From positions 1-41,808 of IMG/VR virus record IMGVR_UViG_3300028557_000076: a DNA stretch of 41,808 bases. The stretch is one strand, 5' to 3'. Below are positions 6,787 to 40,474 of the stretch, piece by piece. Numbering within the stretch: position 1 is the stretch's first letter; the number at the start of each line of letters is the position of its first letter. Origin of the DNA: a virus. A model generated the notes under the pieces. That model was given only the letters and a program-made list of their open reading frames with translations, had not been told where the DNA came from and did no database searches. The position numbers were made by a program, and so were the translations under genes.

Positions 6787-7470
6787 TTACTTACCCATGA
6801 ATGATCCTAAGGATCTTTTTGGTTTTTGTGGTTCGGTACTTTGCTTTCCTGAGCTATATTCTTTATAAACATCTTCTAGCTCTCTACCTTCTAAAGCCCC
6901 TTTTAAATGAGCTTCCATTTCATCTAAAATTCCCTCAATTGCAGCTTCTGGGAGAGTAGGATCGTATAGTCTTTCTGCTAGCACTTCAAATTCGGCTTTG
7001 TTACGTATAGGTAGGGTAGAAGCTAACTGAATTAGTTCCTTACCTGCCTGCTCGTAACCAGAGCGCACTTTTCTTCCTTCATTACTTAAGGATGACATAA
7101 TTTTTGGAGTTTGACCTATGCCGCCTAATTTAGGACCTAAATGGCCACTGGCAAGTCTTTCTCTTTGTCTTTCAATTGTTTCTAGCCCTTGCCTTGCTGG
7201 GGCTTCTTTTTCATGTCTAGCAGCTCTTAACTTTTCACCTTGAGTTTGCGATTCTACACCTGATTGCAAAAGAGCCTTTCTCATTTCCGGGTTTTTTATT
7301 CCAGAAAGTTTGACTCCATATTCTTTATCAAGAAACTCATCTTCTTTCTTTCTATTTACGCTATTTGCAAAATGCGATGCTCCACCAGCTACTCCTGCTC
7401 CTATTCCTCTTCCCAAACTTCTTCCAATTTGAGAACCAAAACTTGGCGCTTCATCAAGTACTATAACCAT
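6787..7470 (-). CDS. Probable DNA-ejection / internal virion protein
   Basis: 227 residues. The N-terminal 35 residues are Gly/Ala-rich and amphipathic (IGRSLGRGIGAGVAGGASHF); the rest is charged and helical with a Lys-rich C-terminus. The start overlaps the upstream stop by one base (TAATG), which indicates translational coupling with 7470-8042. Small, Gly-rich, helix-forming proteins next to a large ejection protein are typical of P22-type gp7/gp20-like sets; the match here is by layout only. Confidence 0.5.
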   Translation of the reverse strand: MVIVLDEAPSFGSQIGRSLGRGIGAGVAGGASHFANSVNRKKEDEFLDKEYGVKLSGIKNPEMRKALLQSGVESQTQGEKLRAARHEKEAPARQGLETIERQRERLASGHLGPKLGGIGQTPKIMSSLSNEGRKVRSGYEQAGKELIQLASTLPIRNKAEFEVLAERLYDPTLPEAAIEGILDEMEAHLKGALEGRELEDVYKEYSSGKQSTEPQKPKRSLGSFMGK

Positions 7471-8042
7471 TAGAATCCTCCCATCATTGCAGATTTTGCA
7501 TAAGTATCTGCGAAGTCAGCTCCCTTCTCTGCTCCACCAAGTAGTAATTGCTTCCAGAATGGAAGAGATTTCTTAGTGAGAGTCTGTTCGTATGGCCTTT
7601 GATTGAGTAGTTCATTTCCAAAACCCATCAGGTCTTTGATGGCATTCTGTTGAAGTCCTACACGATTGGCCTGAAGTTGCTGGGCAAAGTCAGAGGCTGC
7701 TTGATTTGCTGTATTTTGAAAACCTGATGATCTTCTTACTCCAGATCCCATGCCTGAAAAGCGAGAAGCAAGCTGACCTTGTAATCCAGAGAATTGCTTA
7801 AGTGCTGGGGCTTCGATTTGATTGAAGATGTCTTCATCACCACCAGCTAAGCGAGAAGTAAAAGAATCAGGGCCAAGTTGACCAAAGAGTTGTTGGAAGA
7901 GATTGTGTTGTTCGGGGGTAAAATTATTTAAAACACCTTTTTGATACCCTTTTGGAATTTTTTCCTGCATCCCTGTAGAAGATGATCCTACAGACATTCC
8001 AGTTGGTCCTCGATACCCTTGAAATCCACTCATCGATGACAT
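7470..8042 (-). CDS. Probable virion protein, first gene of the ejection cluster
   Basis: 190 residues with a strong AGGAGG ribosome site 4 bases before the ATG at 8042. The sequence is Gln/Gly/Ser-rich with helical repeats (GLQGQLASRFSGMGSGVRRS, then SDFAQQLQANRVGLQQNAIK) and an Ala/Gly-rich C-terminus (LLLGGAEKGADFADTYAKSA). It heads a tight three-gene run with the two ejection-type proteins. This type is often annotated as a hypothetical or tail protein; an internal, ejected protein is my inference. Confidence 0.5.
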   Translation of the reverse strand: MSSMSGFQGYRGPTGMSVGSSSTGMQEKIPKGYQKGVLNNFTPEQHNLFQQLFGQLGPDSFTSRLAGGDEDIFNQIEAPALKQFSGLQGQLASRFSGMGSGVRRSSGFQNTANQAASDFAQQLQANRVGLQQNAIKDLMGFGNELLNQRPYEQTLTKKSLPFWKQLLLGGAEKGADFADTYAKSAMMGGF

Positions 8043-8145: not shown

Positions 8146-8240
8146 TGTGGTTGTCATCGGTGGGATGTGGCAAGCTGAGGATCCGTAGGTTTGGGTCCGG
8201 AAAGGTGATGTTAGGTCCGATTTGGTGGGCTACGGTTTGG
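8146..8240 (+). repeat. Upstream pentamer array (consensus YNNGG), 19 units
   Basis: Cut into five-base units from 8146, this 95-bp tract reads tgtGG, ttgTC, atcGG, tggGA, tgtGG, caaGC, tgaGG and so on. Ten of 19 units end in GG in the same register; two more (gtaGG and tttGG at 8185-8194) are shifted by one base through a 4-nt then a 6-nt unit. Most units start with T. The tract is G-rich on the coding strand of the following gene and ends just before its AT-rich ribosome-site region, so it would form the 5' untranslated part of that mRNA. A matching array follows the gene at 8880-8974. Confidence 0.8.
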
Positions 8241-8266
8241 CTATTTTTATTTTACAAGGAGAGAAA

Positions 8267-8872
8267 ATGAAGCAAATTGGGGGAGAAGTTCCTACAAATG
8301 GAGCAAAAGAATCTATCGAATTCTCTTGCCCCTACCAAGTTAGTGTGAAGTTAAAAGGTACTTCTGATCTTCTATTTCACAGATGGAATGTTGAGGGAAT
8401 CGAAGAAAAAAGTAAAGCTGCCAAGGGATCAAAAGCTAAGAAATCAGACGACATTGAAACTTATATTTATCGAAATAACGAAGGATATCTTTGTCTTCCT
8501 GGTGAATATTTAAGGCAAGCCATCATTCATGCTGCAAAATATAAACAAGACCCGCGTTCTCCTAGAAAATCTGCTATGGATCTATATAAAGCTGCTATAG
8601 TGGTTTTGAATCCTCTTTCTTCTCTTGGAGTCAAAAATTGGGATTATATAGATAAACGCAGAGTAGTTATTCAAAAAAGTGGAATAACTCGTTCTAGACC
8701 TGCTATGAATGTAGGGTGGGAATGCGAATTTGATCTTCAGGTTTTATTGCCTGAATACATTTCTGAATCTGAATTAAATGATGTTATTTCTATGGCAGGA
8801 AAATTAGTTGGTTTAGCTGATTTTCGACCTACATATGGAAGATTTCAAATAGTGAATTTTAAAAAGTTTTAA
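8267..8872 (+). CDS. RAMP/Cas7-like protein flanked by pentamer arrays
   Basis: 201 residues from the ATG at 8267, preceded by AAGGAG; in-frame sequence before this lies in the array. Seen in the sequence: an opening beta strand (CPYQVSVKLKGTSDLLFHRW), a Lys-rich loop, then LCLPGEYLRQAIIHAAKY, which resembles the 'lPGSSLKGalR' helix of RAMP/Cas7 proteins. A central segment (DKRRVVIQKSGITRSRPAMN) precedes a strand pair (WECEFDLQVLLPE). The C-terminus VGLADFRPTYGRFQIVNFK resembles the RAMP glycine-rich loop. Inference: a single-domain RRM-fold RNA-binding protein. It stands alone on the plus strand inside the minus-strand late operon, between ejection and tail genes. Its own promoter and two flanking arrays suggest a self-contained unit. 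Target and role are unknown. Confidence 0.65.
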   Translation: MKQIGGEVPTNGAKESIEFSCPYQVSVKLKGTSDLLFHRWNVEGIEEKSKAAKGSKAKKSDDIETYIYRNNEGYLCLPGEYLRQAIIHAAKYKQDPRSPRKSAMDLYKAAIVVLNPLSSLGVKNWDYIDKRRVVIQKSGITRSRPAMNVGWECEFDLQVLLPEYISESELNDVISMAGKLVGLADFRPTYGRFQIVNFKKF

Positions 8873-8879
8873 TTTTTTG

Positions 8880-8974
8880 TGTGGCCCGGTTAGCTACGGC
8901 ATAGTCCGGTTAGGTGTTGTTGATTGTGTTCCGGTGTGGTGAGGTTCGGCGTGCCTAGGTGGTCTATTGCATGG
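8880..8974 (+). repeat. Downstream pentamer array (consensus YNNGG), 19 units
   Basis: Starting 7 nt after the stop codon of the RAMP-like gene, 19 five-base units run without a slip: tgtGG, cccGG, ttaGC, tacGG, catAG, tccGG, ttaGG, tgtTG, ttgAT, tgtGT, tccGG, tgtGG, tgaGG, ttcGG, cgtGC, ctaGG, tggTC, tatTG, catGG. Eleven of 19 end in GG in phase, and all 19 start with a pyrimidine. Units tgtGG, tgaGG, tccGG, ttaGG and tacGG also occur in the upstream array. The tract ends at the stop codon of the convergent gene 8977-9453. Confidence 0.85.
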
Positions 8975-8976
8975 GT

Positions 8977-9453
8977 CTATGTATTTACTATCCACTCAAG
9001 GATAAGTAATCCCTTAGACATGGAGGGGGGTGATCCTCCTCCTTTTGTTATTATAACTTGAGTTGCGCTAACTTTAACATTTATTTGATTTGTTACGTTT
9101 GTCACATCCACATACGGCAAAGTTTGCCAATATGTTCCATCAAAAAAAGTTCCCCAAATTCTAGTAAAATTTGTTACAGAGTTTATGTCAGGTCCAAGAT
9201 TAAAAATTAAATTTGAATCGCTAAACTGAAAAATTTGTCTTTGCCCTTGTTGTTTTTTATTTCCTTGTAAAAACCAGGCTTCTCCATTTATTGCCGGTCT
9301 TCCTGTAGGAAATAACCCTATAGTCCGAGCGTTAACCACATTTGCTATATCTAGATAGGATTTATCAACCTCTACCTGCAATGCTTGTGGGTCTTGAGGA
9401 AATGATCTAGTGGTACGTAGATATGGAGTTTGATTAACAATATTAGAGGTCAC
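8977..9453 (-). CDS. Small tail protein
   Basis: 158 residues, beta-rich, no named family recognised. Motifs include ARTIGLFPTGRPAINGEAWF and TNFTRIWGTFFDGTYWQTLP, typical of short phage tail or fibre-base proteins. The start overlaps the stop of the large tail hub gene by 4 nt (9450-9453), so the two are translationally coupled and probably act in the same structure. Its 3' end abuts the pentamer array. Confidence 0.6.
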   Translation of the reverse strand: MTSNIVNQTPYLRTTRSFPQDPQALQVEVDKSYLDIANVVNARTIGLFPTGRPAINGEAWFLQGNKKQQGQRQIFQFSDSNLIFNLGPDINSVTNFTRIWGTFFDGTYWQTLPYVDVTNVTNQINVKVSATQVIITKGGGSPPSMSKGLLILEWIVNT

Positions 9454-14364: not shown

Positions 14365-14955
14365 TTAAAATCCTGTTCCACTCATAAAAATTGACTTTCT
14401 CTTATTCACTGGGTGCGCATCAAGCCTTTGCACAACTGTATCTACTGCCATTGCGCCGTAGTATTGACCGTAGCCATCACCACTTGTTAAAGTGGTCTGA
14501 TCCATCTTTAACCTATGATAGTTGCAACGTTTTATTTGTTCAGCTAAATAACGTGGTGCCCATACAGGTTTATTTGTAGGGACCTTCCAAAATTCAGCAG
14601 GAACACCAGCATATGGCTTTGTCCACGTCTCGATAGTCTCGCCGATGATTTCTTTATGTTCTGCTATTAGCTGCACATACTCTTTATCAAACTCCCATGC
14701 AGCACGGAATGTTTCATTAAATTTCTCTCTGCTTGATATGGTTTTATCAGGTTTTAGATAGATGTCTTTTGATTTAGCAATCTCATTCTGTGACATCTTA
14801 GTCTGCATCTCTGTTTCTTCTTTCGGCGCTTCATTCATGCGGTCAAGAGTCATTTTCTTAATGCTATCATCAAATGCTTCAAATTGTTTTTGTGCTTTGT
14901 CCAGCTCTTTTTCAGCTGAGGTTGTTACTTTTGGTTTTTTTTCGTTATCGCTCAT
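14365..14955 (-). CDS. Conserved-looking virion-module protein, function unknown
   Basis: 196 residues. The first 70 are acidic/basic and helical (AEKELDKAQKQFEAFDDSIK). The rest is compact with several aromatics (EFWKVPTNKPVWAPRYLAEQ; DGYGQYYGAMAVDTVVQRLD). It lies between 14964-15377 and the connector gene with short gaps, same strand. I recognise no family; a head-completion or connector-associated protein is possible. Confidence 0.5.
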   Translation of the reverse strand: MSDNEKKPKVTTSAEKELDKAQKQFEAFDDSIKKMTLDRMNEAPKEETEMQTKMSQNEIAKSKDIYLKPDKTISSREKFNETFRAAWEFDKEYVQLIAEHKEIIGETIETWTKPYAGVPAEFWKVPTNKPVWAPRYLAEQIKRCNYHRLKMDQTTLTSGDGYGQYYGAMAVDTVVQRLDAHPVNKRKSIFMSGTGF

Positions 14956-35444: not shown

Positions 35445-35867
35445 TACAGGATAGACACTATGCGCCTACCCCTTGATTAACCCCTAAGTATTTAAATTAT
35501 TTATTTAACACGGAACCCTTTTATTAGTCAATCACCCTCCCTTGAAAGGGAAGGCATGTCGTGAGACAAGCTTAGTTGACCAGCCTTAGTCCCGCAAGGG
35601 GCTATGTTAGAGAAGAATATATAGGCACCGTAGAATGCTTCCTCAGTTCTACGCTCTGCGGTTAATGGTTAAACAGATGTAAGGGTTAAGTCAGTGCTGT
35701 TAACATTAAACCTTCTTATAACTTTGGCGAGGGGAGACCACCAAAAGGTGGCGTTACAAGGCCCTTACGGGCATTTGGGGGAGCAATCCCCCTTTTATTA
35801 ACAATTTAAAAGAGGAGCGGCATTTCCTCCCCATCCCAAAGAATGGGGTCTCCATGCCGTCAATATA
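35445..35867 (+). ncRNA. Non-coding region rich in hairpins, possible structured RNA
   Basis: No convincing frame. From left to right: CCCTT-ga-AAGGG (35539-35550), CGTAGAA / TTCTACG (35629-35653), CCACC-aaaa-GGTGG (35738-35751), GCCC-ttac-GGGC (35761-35772), then the terminator at 35777-35796. Beyond it GGCAT...CCCCAT...ATGGGG...ATGCC (35819-35858) forms a two-part hairpin right before 35868. About 300 nt of ordered stems ending in a terminator suggests an RNA gene. Confidence 0.5.
35777..35796 (+). terminator. Intrinsic terminator with GCAA tetraloop
   Basis: GGGGGA, loop GCAA, TCCCCC, then TTTTATTA on the plus strand. Ends the early operon or the candidate RNA before it. Confidence 0.85.
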
Positions 35868-36161
35868 ATGAAAGCTTACGATGCGATTATGTCTTTTTAC
35901 CGCATAAAGGGACTTCTTAAACTAAAAGATCTGTCAGATGACCTAGAAATTTTAGAGTCTTACCTAGAAATGCAATTTTTTTTAGAGGAAGAGGAAAGGA
36001 AATTTTTAGAGGGATTTGCCTACGCACCAAAAGATACGGCCACATATACGGCCAATTTAGAAGAAATACGGCCATTAAAGATTAAAGATTCGATGCGACA
36101 CAAGGTTTCTGAGTATTATTTAGAAGATGGCATTCCAAATAGCAGACCATTGGACGATTAA
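35868..36161 (+). CDS. Small early-end protein of unknown function
   Basis: 97 residues, acidic and helical (LKDLSDDLEILESYLEMQFF). No clear ribosome site; a stem (35819-35858) precedes the ATG by 9 bases, so translation may be regulated or initiated in another way. The frame is otherwise healthy. No family recognised. Confidence 0.5.
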   Translation: MKAYDAIMSFYRIKGLLKLKDLSDDLEILESYLEMQFFLEEEERKFLEGFAYAPKDTATYTANLEEIRPLKIKDSMRHKVSEYYLEDGIPNSRPLDD

Positions 36162-38776: not shown

Positions 38777-40372
38777 TTAGCCTATTTGAGTAGTTAGCGT
38801 AGTTATCGAACCTACAGTAATTGTCCCAGTTGTCGTTACTCTAGCATAATATTTAGCAGGTACTACAAAGCTAAATCCATATGGTAATGCTGTTACAGTT
38901 ATCGATGCAGTTACAGCTTGTGCAGTTGGGGTGTTAGTAGGTCCAACACCGACTAGTATTACCGCCGCCGTAGAAGAAGTAATCTCCATGGATACATTTA
39001 CAAGAATTGGGTAGTTAGCGGTATTTTGTAAAGCTGTACCCACTGCTAATTGACCAAATGCTGTACTTGCTGTATTTGCGGCTACAGGGGTCAAGCATTG
39101 CAACTGGTCATTAGATATGTCTTGAGATGTTAGGTAAGGAGTTGGGGAACCTGCAACTAATGTTGGATTTGCAATACCTGAGATAAAAGCTCTTGAAAGT
39201 TGATTAGCTCCAGTTCCTGTGCTAGCACCTATTGCAAGAGAATTGCTTCGACCTGTTACGCCACTATTTTTTATTAAAATGTTATTGGATTCTGCTCCAG
39301 TAAGAGAAATTCCAGAATTAAGGCCTAGAGCTAAATTGTTGTCTCCAGTTAATACATTTTCTAAACTTTGGCTTCCTATTGCAAGATTGTTATCCCCACC
39401 ATTTAAAAGCCTCAAGCTGTAGTACCCTATAGCCAGATTTCCAGCATCACTAGCACTTGTAAATAAAGCATTTGTCCCAATTCCCAATACCCCTGAAACT
39501 ATTTCCCCGGGAGATAAAGCTTGAAGACAATTGTGCCCTATAGCTATTACATCGCTTCCTTCCGTATTATTTGATTGAGAAAAGTTTCCTATACTTATGC
39601 ATCGTTCGTTTTTTTCTGAACCTTGCATAGCTTGCGATCCAATAGCGATGCAATCATCATTTGAAAGTGCTGAAAACAGAGCTGCACTTCCTAATGCCAC
39701 ATTTCTTGTTCCAGTTAATGGATTTGTTGCTCCGGCATCTTTTCCTAAAAGTGTATTAGAAGATCCATCTGTAATAGATAATGTTACATTTGGTGTAGCC
39801 GCATTAAAACGGACTGAGCGGCCGCAATCATATGTAGAAGTACCAGCTTTTATTGTTACCGCATTTGTTGAAAATGCAGTGCCCACATCTCCAGTAAATT
39901 GGATTGAATTTGTTCCTGTTAATAAAGCGTAGGCTGCATTCCAACCGGCGGCAGCTGTACTTACAAGCGATATGACAGTAAGAACGAGTTGAGTGTTTGC
40001 TGCCATAGCTTGGATTGTGTTAGCGCCAGATGATTGCACGGTCACTACGCCAGAAGAATTATTGATGATAGTAAACGTTTGTCCAAGAACAAGAGTGGAT
40101 GTCACAGGCATTACTACAGTCTGAGTAGTAGATCCTGTAAAGTACTGTTGTTGAGCAGAGGCTACAGTAAGCGTAGTTGTACCTGCTGCGGTGGCTGTGG
40201 TTGCATAGCCAGAAATAGATGAATTAAAATAGGAATTGCCACTTGAATCTCTTGATACAAGGTTAGATGTCCCAGATGATGCGCTGTAAGAAAGATTGGA
40301 AAAAGCTGTTCCAGTTCCTATTACAGCTGTTCCGGAAGTTGTAGGTATGTTTAAACTATTAGTTTGTGCCAT
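38777..40372 (-). CDS. Tail fibre B with YadA-like shaft
   Basis: 531 residues. The first 146 match fibre A closely; the rest differs. The shaft (about 190-400) repeats the pattern seen in NVALGSAALFSALSNDDCIA and NLAIGYYSLRLLNGGDNNLA, a YadA-like beta-roll, ending with RAFISGIANPTLV and a beta tip. In circular order it would follow the small frame 123-254. Receptor specificity probably differs from fibre A because the tips are unrelated. Confidence 0.8.
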   Translation of the reverse strand: MAQTNSLNIPTTSGTAVIGTGTAFSNLSYSASSGTSNLVSRDSSGNSYFNSSISGYATTATAAGTTTLTVASAQQQYFTGSTTQTVVMPVTSTLVLGQTFTIINNSSGVVTVQSSGANTIQAMAANTQLVLTVISLVSTAAAGWNAAYALLTGTNSIQFTGDVGTAFSTNAVTIKAGTSTYDCGRSVRFNAATPNVTLSITDGSSNTLLGKDAGATNPLTGTRNVALGSAALFSALSNDDCIAIGSQAMQGSEKNERCISIGNFSQSNNTEGSDVIAIGHNCLQALSPGEIVSGVLGIGTNALFTSASDAGNLAIGYYSLRLLNGGDNNLAIGSQSLENVLTGDNNLALGLNSGISLTGAESNNILIKNSGVTGRSNSLAIGASTGTGANQLSRAFISGIANPTLVAGSPTPYLTSQDISNDQLQCLTPVAANTASTAFGQLAVGTALQNTANYPILVNVSMEITSSTAAVILVGVGPTNTPTAQAVTASITVTALPYGFSFVVPAKYYARVTTTGTITVGSITTLTTQIG

Positions 40373-40474
40373 TTTTTACCTTTTATGTTTTCTCATTCCA
40401 GGGAACATATCCTATTTCAATTGCTATTCTTCTTTTTACAGAAAAATAGCAATTTTTGAACCTTAATTTATTTC

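Follow-up and report, generated by a model that had tools for sequence, protein, structure and literature searches.

A phage VIPR cassette whose two guides appear to spell rival-phage versions of both adjacent genes

The DNA analyzed here is IMG/VR virus record IMGVR_UViG_3300028557_000076, positions 1 to 41,808 (this whole stretch of 41,808 nucleotides is referred to as the window). It carries a small cassette that, as judged from its gene and repeats, is a predicted one-protein, RNA-guided DNA-silencing system of the VIPR kind. The two guides of the cassette appear to spell rival-phage versions of both adjacent genes, and a comparable pattern appears to recur in related cassettes. Guides directed against alleles of flanking genes are new relative to the main text of the VIPR preprint (PMC13142463), which makes no mention of homing, neighbours, orthologues or exclusion.

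VIPR (Viral Interference Programmable Repeat), composed of the protein Vipr and the RNA vrRNA and exemplified by phage SUSP1, was described in a 2026 preprint (PMC13142463). According to that work, Vipr is a small single-RRM RAMP homologue of ~20 kDa, and vrRNAs are ~100 nt RNAs made of YNNGG repeats (9–16 units in the studied clades), encoded beside vipr on the same strand and each carrying an invariable structured 3' tail. It is through the NN pairs that the RNA reads double-stranded DNA, skipping one base per unit, usually the codon wobble base; the ribonucleoprotein (RNP) forms, binds DNA and represses without a PAM, and perturbed NN pairing abolishes silencing. An accessory gene, vap, is typical and not required of all systems (PMC13142463).

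Results

The gene in the middle of the cassette (8267–8872, plus strand) encodes a protein of 201 amino acids. The preliminary description had called it RAMP/Cas7-like from the sequence, and structure prediction bore out this fold: the AlphaFold2 model had a pLDDT of 86.7, and its best Foldseek matches were Cas7-11, Csm3 and type VII Cas7, with E values as low as 4.8e-7 and TM scores of at most ~0.58. A Pfam search with the protein gave no match, and the protein matched phrog_4652. A profile of its clade (47 sequences) hit PDB entry 36pp_D, 'SUSP1 Vipr protein', at E=9.5e-11, hhalign against SUSP1 Vipr gave 98.1%, and tblastn with the protein found phiSUSP1 at E=5e-4. By these computational measures, the protein is a member of the Vipr family, with the small RAMP/Cas7 fold. 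A close homologue (59.5% identity) is WJZ48083.1 of phage DSL-LC04 (OR003939.1; locus L005), whose annotation as a 'helix-turn-helix transcriptional regulator' is apparently wrong; period-5 arrays lie upstream of that gene as well.

Two repeat tracts lie on the gene strand on either side of vipr, vrRNA 1 at 8146–8240 and vrRNA 2 at 8880–8974, which confirmed the previously described pair of 95-bp tracts of 19 five-base units flanking a plus-strand gene. Each tract could be read in a single register, with 11 of the 19 units ending in GG. For the downstream tract, our recount agreed with the earlier one, including a pyrimidine at the start of all 19 units; for the upstream tract, the in-register array stood, and the earlier count of 10/19 had to be corrected to 11/19 in one register. 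Over the 38 units of both tracts, position 1 was a pyrimidine in 35, position 4 was G in 30 and position 5 was G in 27, and positions 2 and 3 were mixed. In 95-nt stretches elsewhere in the window, the same period-5 GG score reached at most 5 on the plus strand and 6 on the minus strand. The shuffled control suggested earlier came out in favour of the arrays, in that 11 GG units never arose when either tract was dinucleotide-shuffled 20,000 times (maxima 10 and 8). The NN code reads GT TG TC GG GT AA GA TC AG TG CC AA GA TA CC TT GG AC TT in vrRNA 1 and GT CC TA AC AT CC TA GT TG GT CC GT GA TC GT TA GG AT AT in vrRNA 2.

Between tract 1 and vipr is an A/T-rich stretch (8241–8266, plus strand), a possible short vrRNA tail, which includes a ribosome-binding-like AAGGAG (8256–8261). 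Directly 3' of tract 2, a stem-loop is predicted at 8975–9019 (plus strand), and folding of 8975–9060 was more stable than all of 200 shuffles (z = −3.5), making it a candidate vrRNA 3' tail; a stable stem-loop was thus present 3' of tract 2 only, with the A/T-rich stretch in the corresponding place 3' of tract 1. A terminator-like hairpin with a T run (9022–9046, plus strand) marks the apparent end of the plus-strand cassette, and the stem-loop and the hairpin after tract 2 are consistent with a single transcription unit. The cassette is flanked by two minus-strand genes, at 7470–8042 (190 amino acids; without a homologue among annotated phages) and at 8977–9453 (158 amino acids). These genes are 934 nt apart in the window and adjacent in most relatives, where the gap is mostly tens of bases or less (start sites in the relatives were estimated by alignment), so the proposal that the cassette is an independent insert held. 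In the 934-nt insert, vipr is the sole gene, and no vap gene was found. A few relatives have other inserts in the same gap between the orthologous late genes; because HNH_3 endonuclease genes fill it in two of them (L087, 2023–2673; L134, 2021–2689), the gap is an insertion hot spot shared with endonuclease genes.

We scanned the NN strings across the window at skips of 0 to 3 nt. Guide 1 gave one outlier, matching 25 of 38 positions at skip 1 in antisense orientation to gene 7470–8042 next to the cassette, at KIPKGYQKGVLNNFTPEQH (7906–7961); the 13 mismatches of this site are mostly in the middle of the guide. Homologues of this gene were then considered in a set first fetched by protein similarity alone, without use of the guide. 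In the unselected homologues L008, L009 and L012, guide 1 matched 27, 24 and 27 of 38 positions, at one site and at skip 1 (skips 0, 2 and 3: at most 23/38), and its column maximum over the unselected orthologues was 22.5 versus at most 19.7 in shuffled guides (0/300). The matched motif in the orthologues is K.PKGY..GQL..FTPEQ, read antisense, and the window's own site scores in the middle of their range. The preliminary description had also advised searching the variable positions as gapped patterns: a scan with a partial guide 1 pattern retrieved 39 contigs, most of them belonging to the family of the window phage, with a best match of 30/38, and exact half-guide patterns of guides 1 and 2 gave no match in viral_contigs. 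Since the 39-contig set was guide-selected, the statistics for guide 1 rest on the unselected orthologues. The gapped profile test (z=11.8) and the ranking among 1,250 ORFs (19 of the top 20 belonging to the gene 7470–8042 family) include selected sequences. Shuffled guides never attained the match level of guide 1, and the match was repeated, at 29/38, in a further collection picked via the other flanking gene. These comparisons show computationally that guide 1 matches orthologues of the adjacent gene at skip 1 and at that skip alone, as expected if its NN pairs set the target by the VIPR rule.

The best matches of guide 2, which decodes to [IM][IM]PYT[DE]STGT[HQ]TYG[IM]VYGT, were in orthologues of the second flanking gene, 8977–9453, in antisense orientation at the motif YTDGTNSYGLxYGT. 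They took ranks 1, 2 and 4 among the 1,250 ORFs, all at this one motif, and the match was replicated in 78 more relatives (best 25/38). Shuffling of the guide reached the observed level in 0/1000 cases for units 1–12, 0/1000 for units 1–15 and 16/1000 for all 19 units, the unit sub-ranges having been chosen after the data were seen; a plain column average did not reach significance over the initial 34 orthologues (51/300 shuffles). We regard the orthologues of gene 8977–9453 as the probable target of guide 2. The aligned site in the window itself (~9106–9162) matched only at background level, 16/38. Two other candidates for guide 2 were set aside: a sense match to WTKPYAGVPAEF in gene 14365–14955, an outside possibility that ranks lower (23.2 vs 26.4), and an isolated skip-3 match of 26/38 in L044 (= L131). 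Across relatives, the scores of the two guides were weakly correlated (rho 0.22, P 0.053). Among the contigs scanned, there was no match better than 30/38 for guide 1, and none better than 25/38 to a flanking-gene orthologue for guide 2; with these as the best matches, the exact target phages were not found in the scanned collections.

Arrays of the same type were present in 89 of 94 loci of the Vipr clade, 247 on the gene strand versus 3 on the opposite strand, with unit consensus frequencies of 0.88 for Y, 0.94 for G4 and 0.83 for G5. Homologues lacking period-5 flanks, which the preliminary description had named as evidence against its reading, were accordingly the exception. An array directly follows vipr in 66 of 91 clade relatives, and a 10-nt super-period, in which GG and non-GG units would alternate, was not seen in the clade. 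Applied to SUSP1 as a positive control, the array finder returned one upstream and three downstream arrays, in agreement with the preprint.

In order to survey self-matches, 806 guide windows from 82 loci were compared with their own loci, and matches with E<0.05 were taken as strong. At skip 1 there were 17 strong self-matches, 14 of which (in 11 loci) lay within 500 bp of the array; at the other skips the corresponding numbers were 0/3 (skip 0), 0/2 (skip 2) and 1/6 (skip 3). Best matches at skips 0, 2 and 3, whatever their strength, fell within 500 bp of the array in ~13–16% of cases, and shuffling of the unit order left on average 1.0 near strong match (maximum 3 in 30 runs). These values demonstrate, at the computational level, a clade-wide excess of matches to flanking genes. 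Only 11 of the 82 loci passed the strict threshold; the counts are probably lower bounds, because the carriers' own alleles have diverged. In three loci, the decoded peptide resembles an allelic variant of the neighbour's product (L187, [IM]TL[KN][DE]T[IM]A[DE]R[IM]LA[RS] vs MGLNDSISDRIISR; L169, [FL]VL[IM][DE][FL]SS[IM]A[HQ]PSY vs LVLLDFSSILHPTW; L235, PAG[KN]YLAV[IM]V[DE]S[DE][IM] vs PAGRYQAAVVDSEM). In L003, the first guide matched 17/22 immediately upstream of its own array, and its decode, YVS[DE][DE][KN][DE][FL]L, can be set against the end of the neighbour, YVSEDKIFLD. When the longest ORF was used to assign it, the wobble phase of near self-matches could not be read unambiguously in GC-rich loci (14/26).

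Discussion

The preliminary description had presented this as an undescribed system, which does not hold, as the same architecture, a Vipr protein with YNNGG vrRNAs flanking its gene, has already been published as VIPR (PMC13142463). Its idea of a constant GG, with the remaining bases as code or guide, was right in kind; in VIPR it is the NN pairs that read DNA, with a 1-nt skip. The window cassette shares with VIPR a homologous, phage-encoded Vipr protein, gene-flanking YNNGG arrays on the gene strand and 1-nt-skip decoding. It differs in that its Vipr comes from a distant clade (24–28% identity to the SUSP1 and Medea1 proteins), its tracts have 19 units each versus 9–16 in the studied clades, its insert is without vap, with long arrays right after vipr in most clade relatives, and its guides seem to aim at relatives' flanking-gene alleles rather than at satellites or prophages. 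With the class 1 CRISPR RAMP complexes (Cas7/Csm3) the protein shares the fold, but the insert, which holds one gene and 5-nt-unit arrays only, has neither further cas genes nor a repeat-spacer array, and the guide is noncontiguous.

We consider local allele exclusion to be the best explanation of the cassette, and a probable one. In this model, a minimal VIPR cassette, ordered as vrRNA 1, vipr, vrRNA 2, stem-loop and terminator, would have been inserted between two neighbouring genes on the opposite strand. Vipr would form a complex with each of the two vrRNAs, whose NN dinucleotides would pair with double-stranded DNA under the 1-nt-skip rule. Each guide would spell the first and second codon positions of its flanking gene, as they stand in a related phage's allele and not in the carrier's own. 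On co-infection, the RNP would bind and silence the rival's copies of both genes at the locus lacking the cassette, and the diverged alleles of the carrier would escape. We infer transcription, RNP formation, silencing, own-allele escape and a benefit to spread from the sequence comparisons; the site of guide 1 in the window retains 25/38, which counts against regarding self-escape as proven.

The guides could instead be those of an ordinary VIPR system as published, aimed at competitors wherever this is useful, so that a match to orthologues of the neighbours would reflect shared genes and not position. SUSP1 guides do target satellites and P. fulva guides prophages (PMC13142463), and within the flanks fetched the arrays of SUSP1 and Medea1 showed no match to their own flanking genes; however, the two genes next to the cassette are precisely those indicated by guide 1 and, probably, by guide 2, and strong self-matches in the clade cluster within 500 bp of the arrays, which leaves this explanation unlikely. 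Less probable still is that the vrRNAs tune the expression of the carrier's own neighbouring genes. The guides match the gene families of the neighbours, and 25/38 is retained at the own guide 1 site, yet most of the mismatches there fall mid-guide, the carrier's guide 2 site does not rise above background, relatives score higher with both guides, and silencing is abolished when NN pairing is perturbed (PMC13142463). As for the view that the arrays have lost any guide role and are G-rich repeats, either decayed or structural RNA only, a perfect GG is indeed missing in 8 of 19 units of each tract. Against it, guide 1 matches one orthologous site in many phages at the 1-nt skip only, and relatives' guides retain conservative peptide matches to their neighbours; we give it hardly any weight.

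Local allele exclusion has a precedent in intronless homing and marker exclusion, where the T4 endonuclease SegF, encoded between soc and 56, targets gene 56 (PMC2988022). In both cases an insert between genes would act on the neighbour's allele in a related phage, and HNH endonucleases occupy the very same gap in two relatives of the window phage. The window cassette has no nuclease gene, however, and RNA guides would choose its target, so that silencing or binding is expected, which should lead to exclusion and not to copying driven by double-strand breaks. The likeness is an analogy of logic, not membership. Whether a whole clade of VIPR cassettes consists of such nuclease-free, RNA-guided, homing-like elements, each placed between two genes and armed with guides against rival alleles of them, so that alleles lacking the cassette are excluded from mixed infections and its own spread is favoured, is in our estimate an even question; if true, guide content would mirror the sequence around the cassette, a point relevant to guide acquisition.

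VIPR has been suggested to be an ancestor-like CRISPR relative, and guides against neighbour alleles make the choice and purpose of guides directly testable beyond the few studied VIPR clades. The finding connects the long-standing question of marker exclusion in phages with RNA-guided silencing, lends computational support to 1-nt-skip decoding in a clade far removed from SUSP1, and offers many natural pairs of guide and near-target for measuring mismatch tolerance.

Other features of the window and of the clade

The window phage encodes a P22-like portal. A HEARO RNA (RF02033, 136 bits) was found at 35527–35741 (plus strand). HEARO RNA usually accompanies HNH/IsrB-like proteins; the ORF just 3' of it here (35868–36161, 97 amino acids) is unlike them, so this copy may be an orphan. 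Three identical 120-nt copies are present at 1–120, 1621–1740 and 40321–40440, and a 300-nt pair, 89% identical and 38.7 kb apart, lies near the contig ends (1235–1534 and 39935–40234); these repeats could stem from redundant ends, either of the genome or of its assembly, or from duplication of tail-fibre-like genes.

Among the clade members, very long YNNGG arrays surround vipr in L196 (2517–5435) and L004 (2294–2908), with up to 115 units per block, far exceeding the 9–16 units that the preprint gives per vrRNA. A single chromosome contig of a cyanobacterial MAG, Stenomitos rutilans, holds two Vipr loci, L236 and L237, ~100 kb apart; their array coordinates are identical, and they are possibly duplicated prophages.
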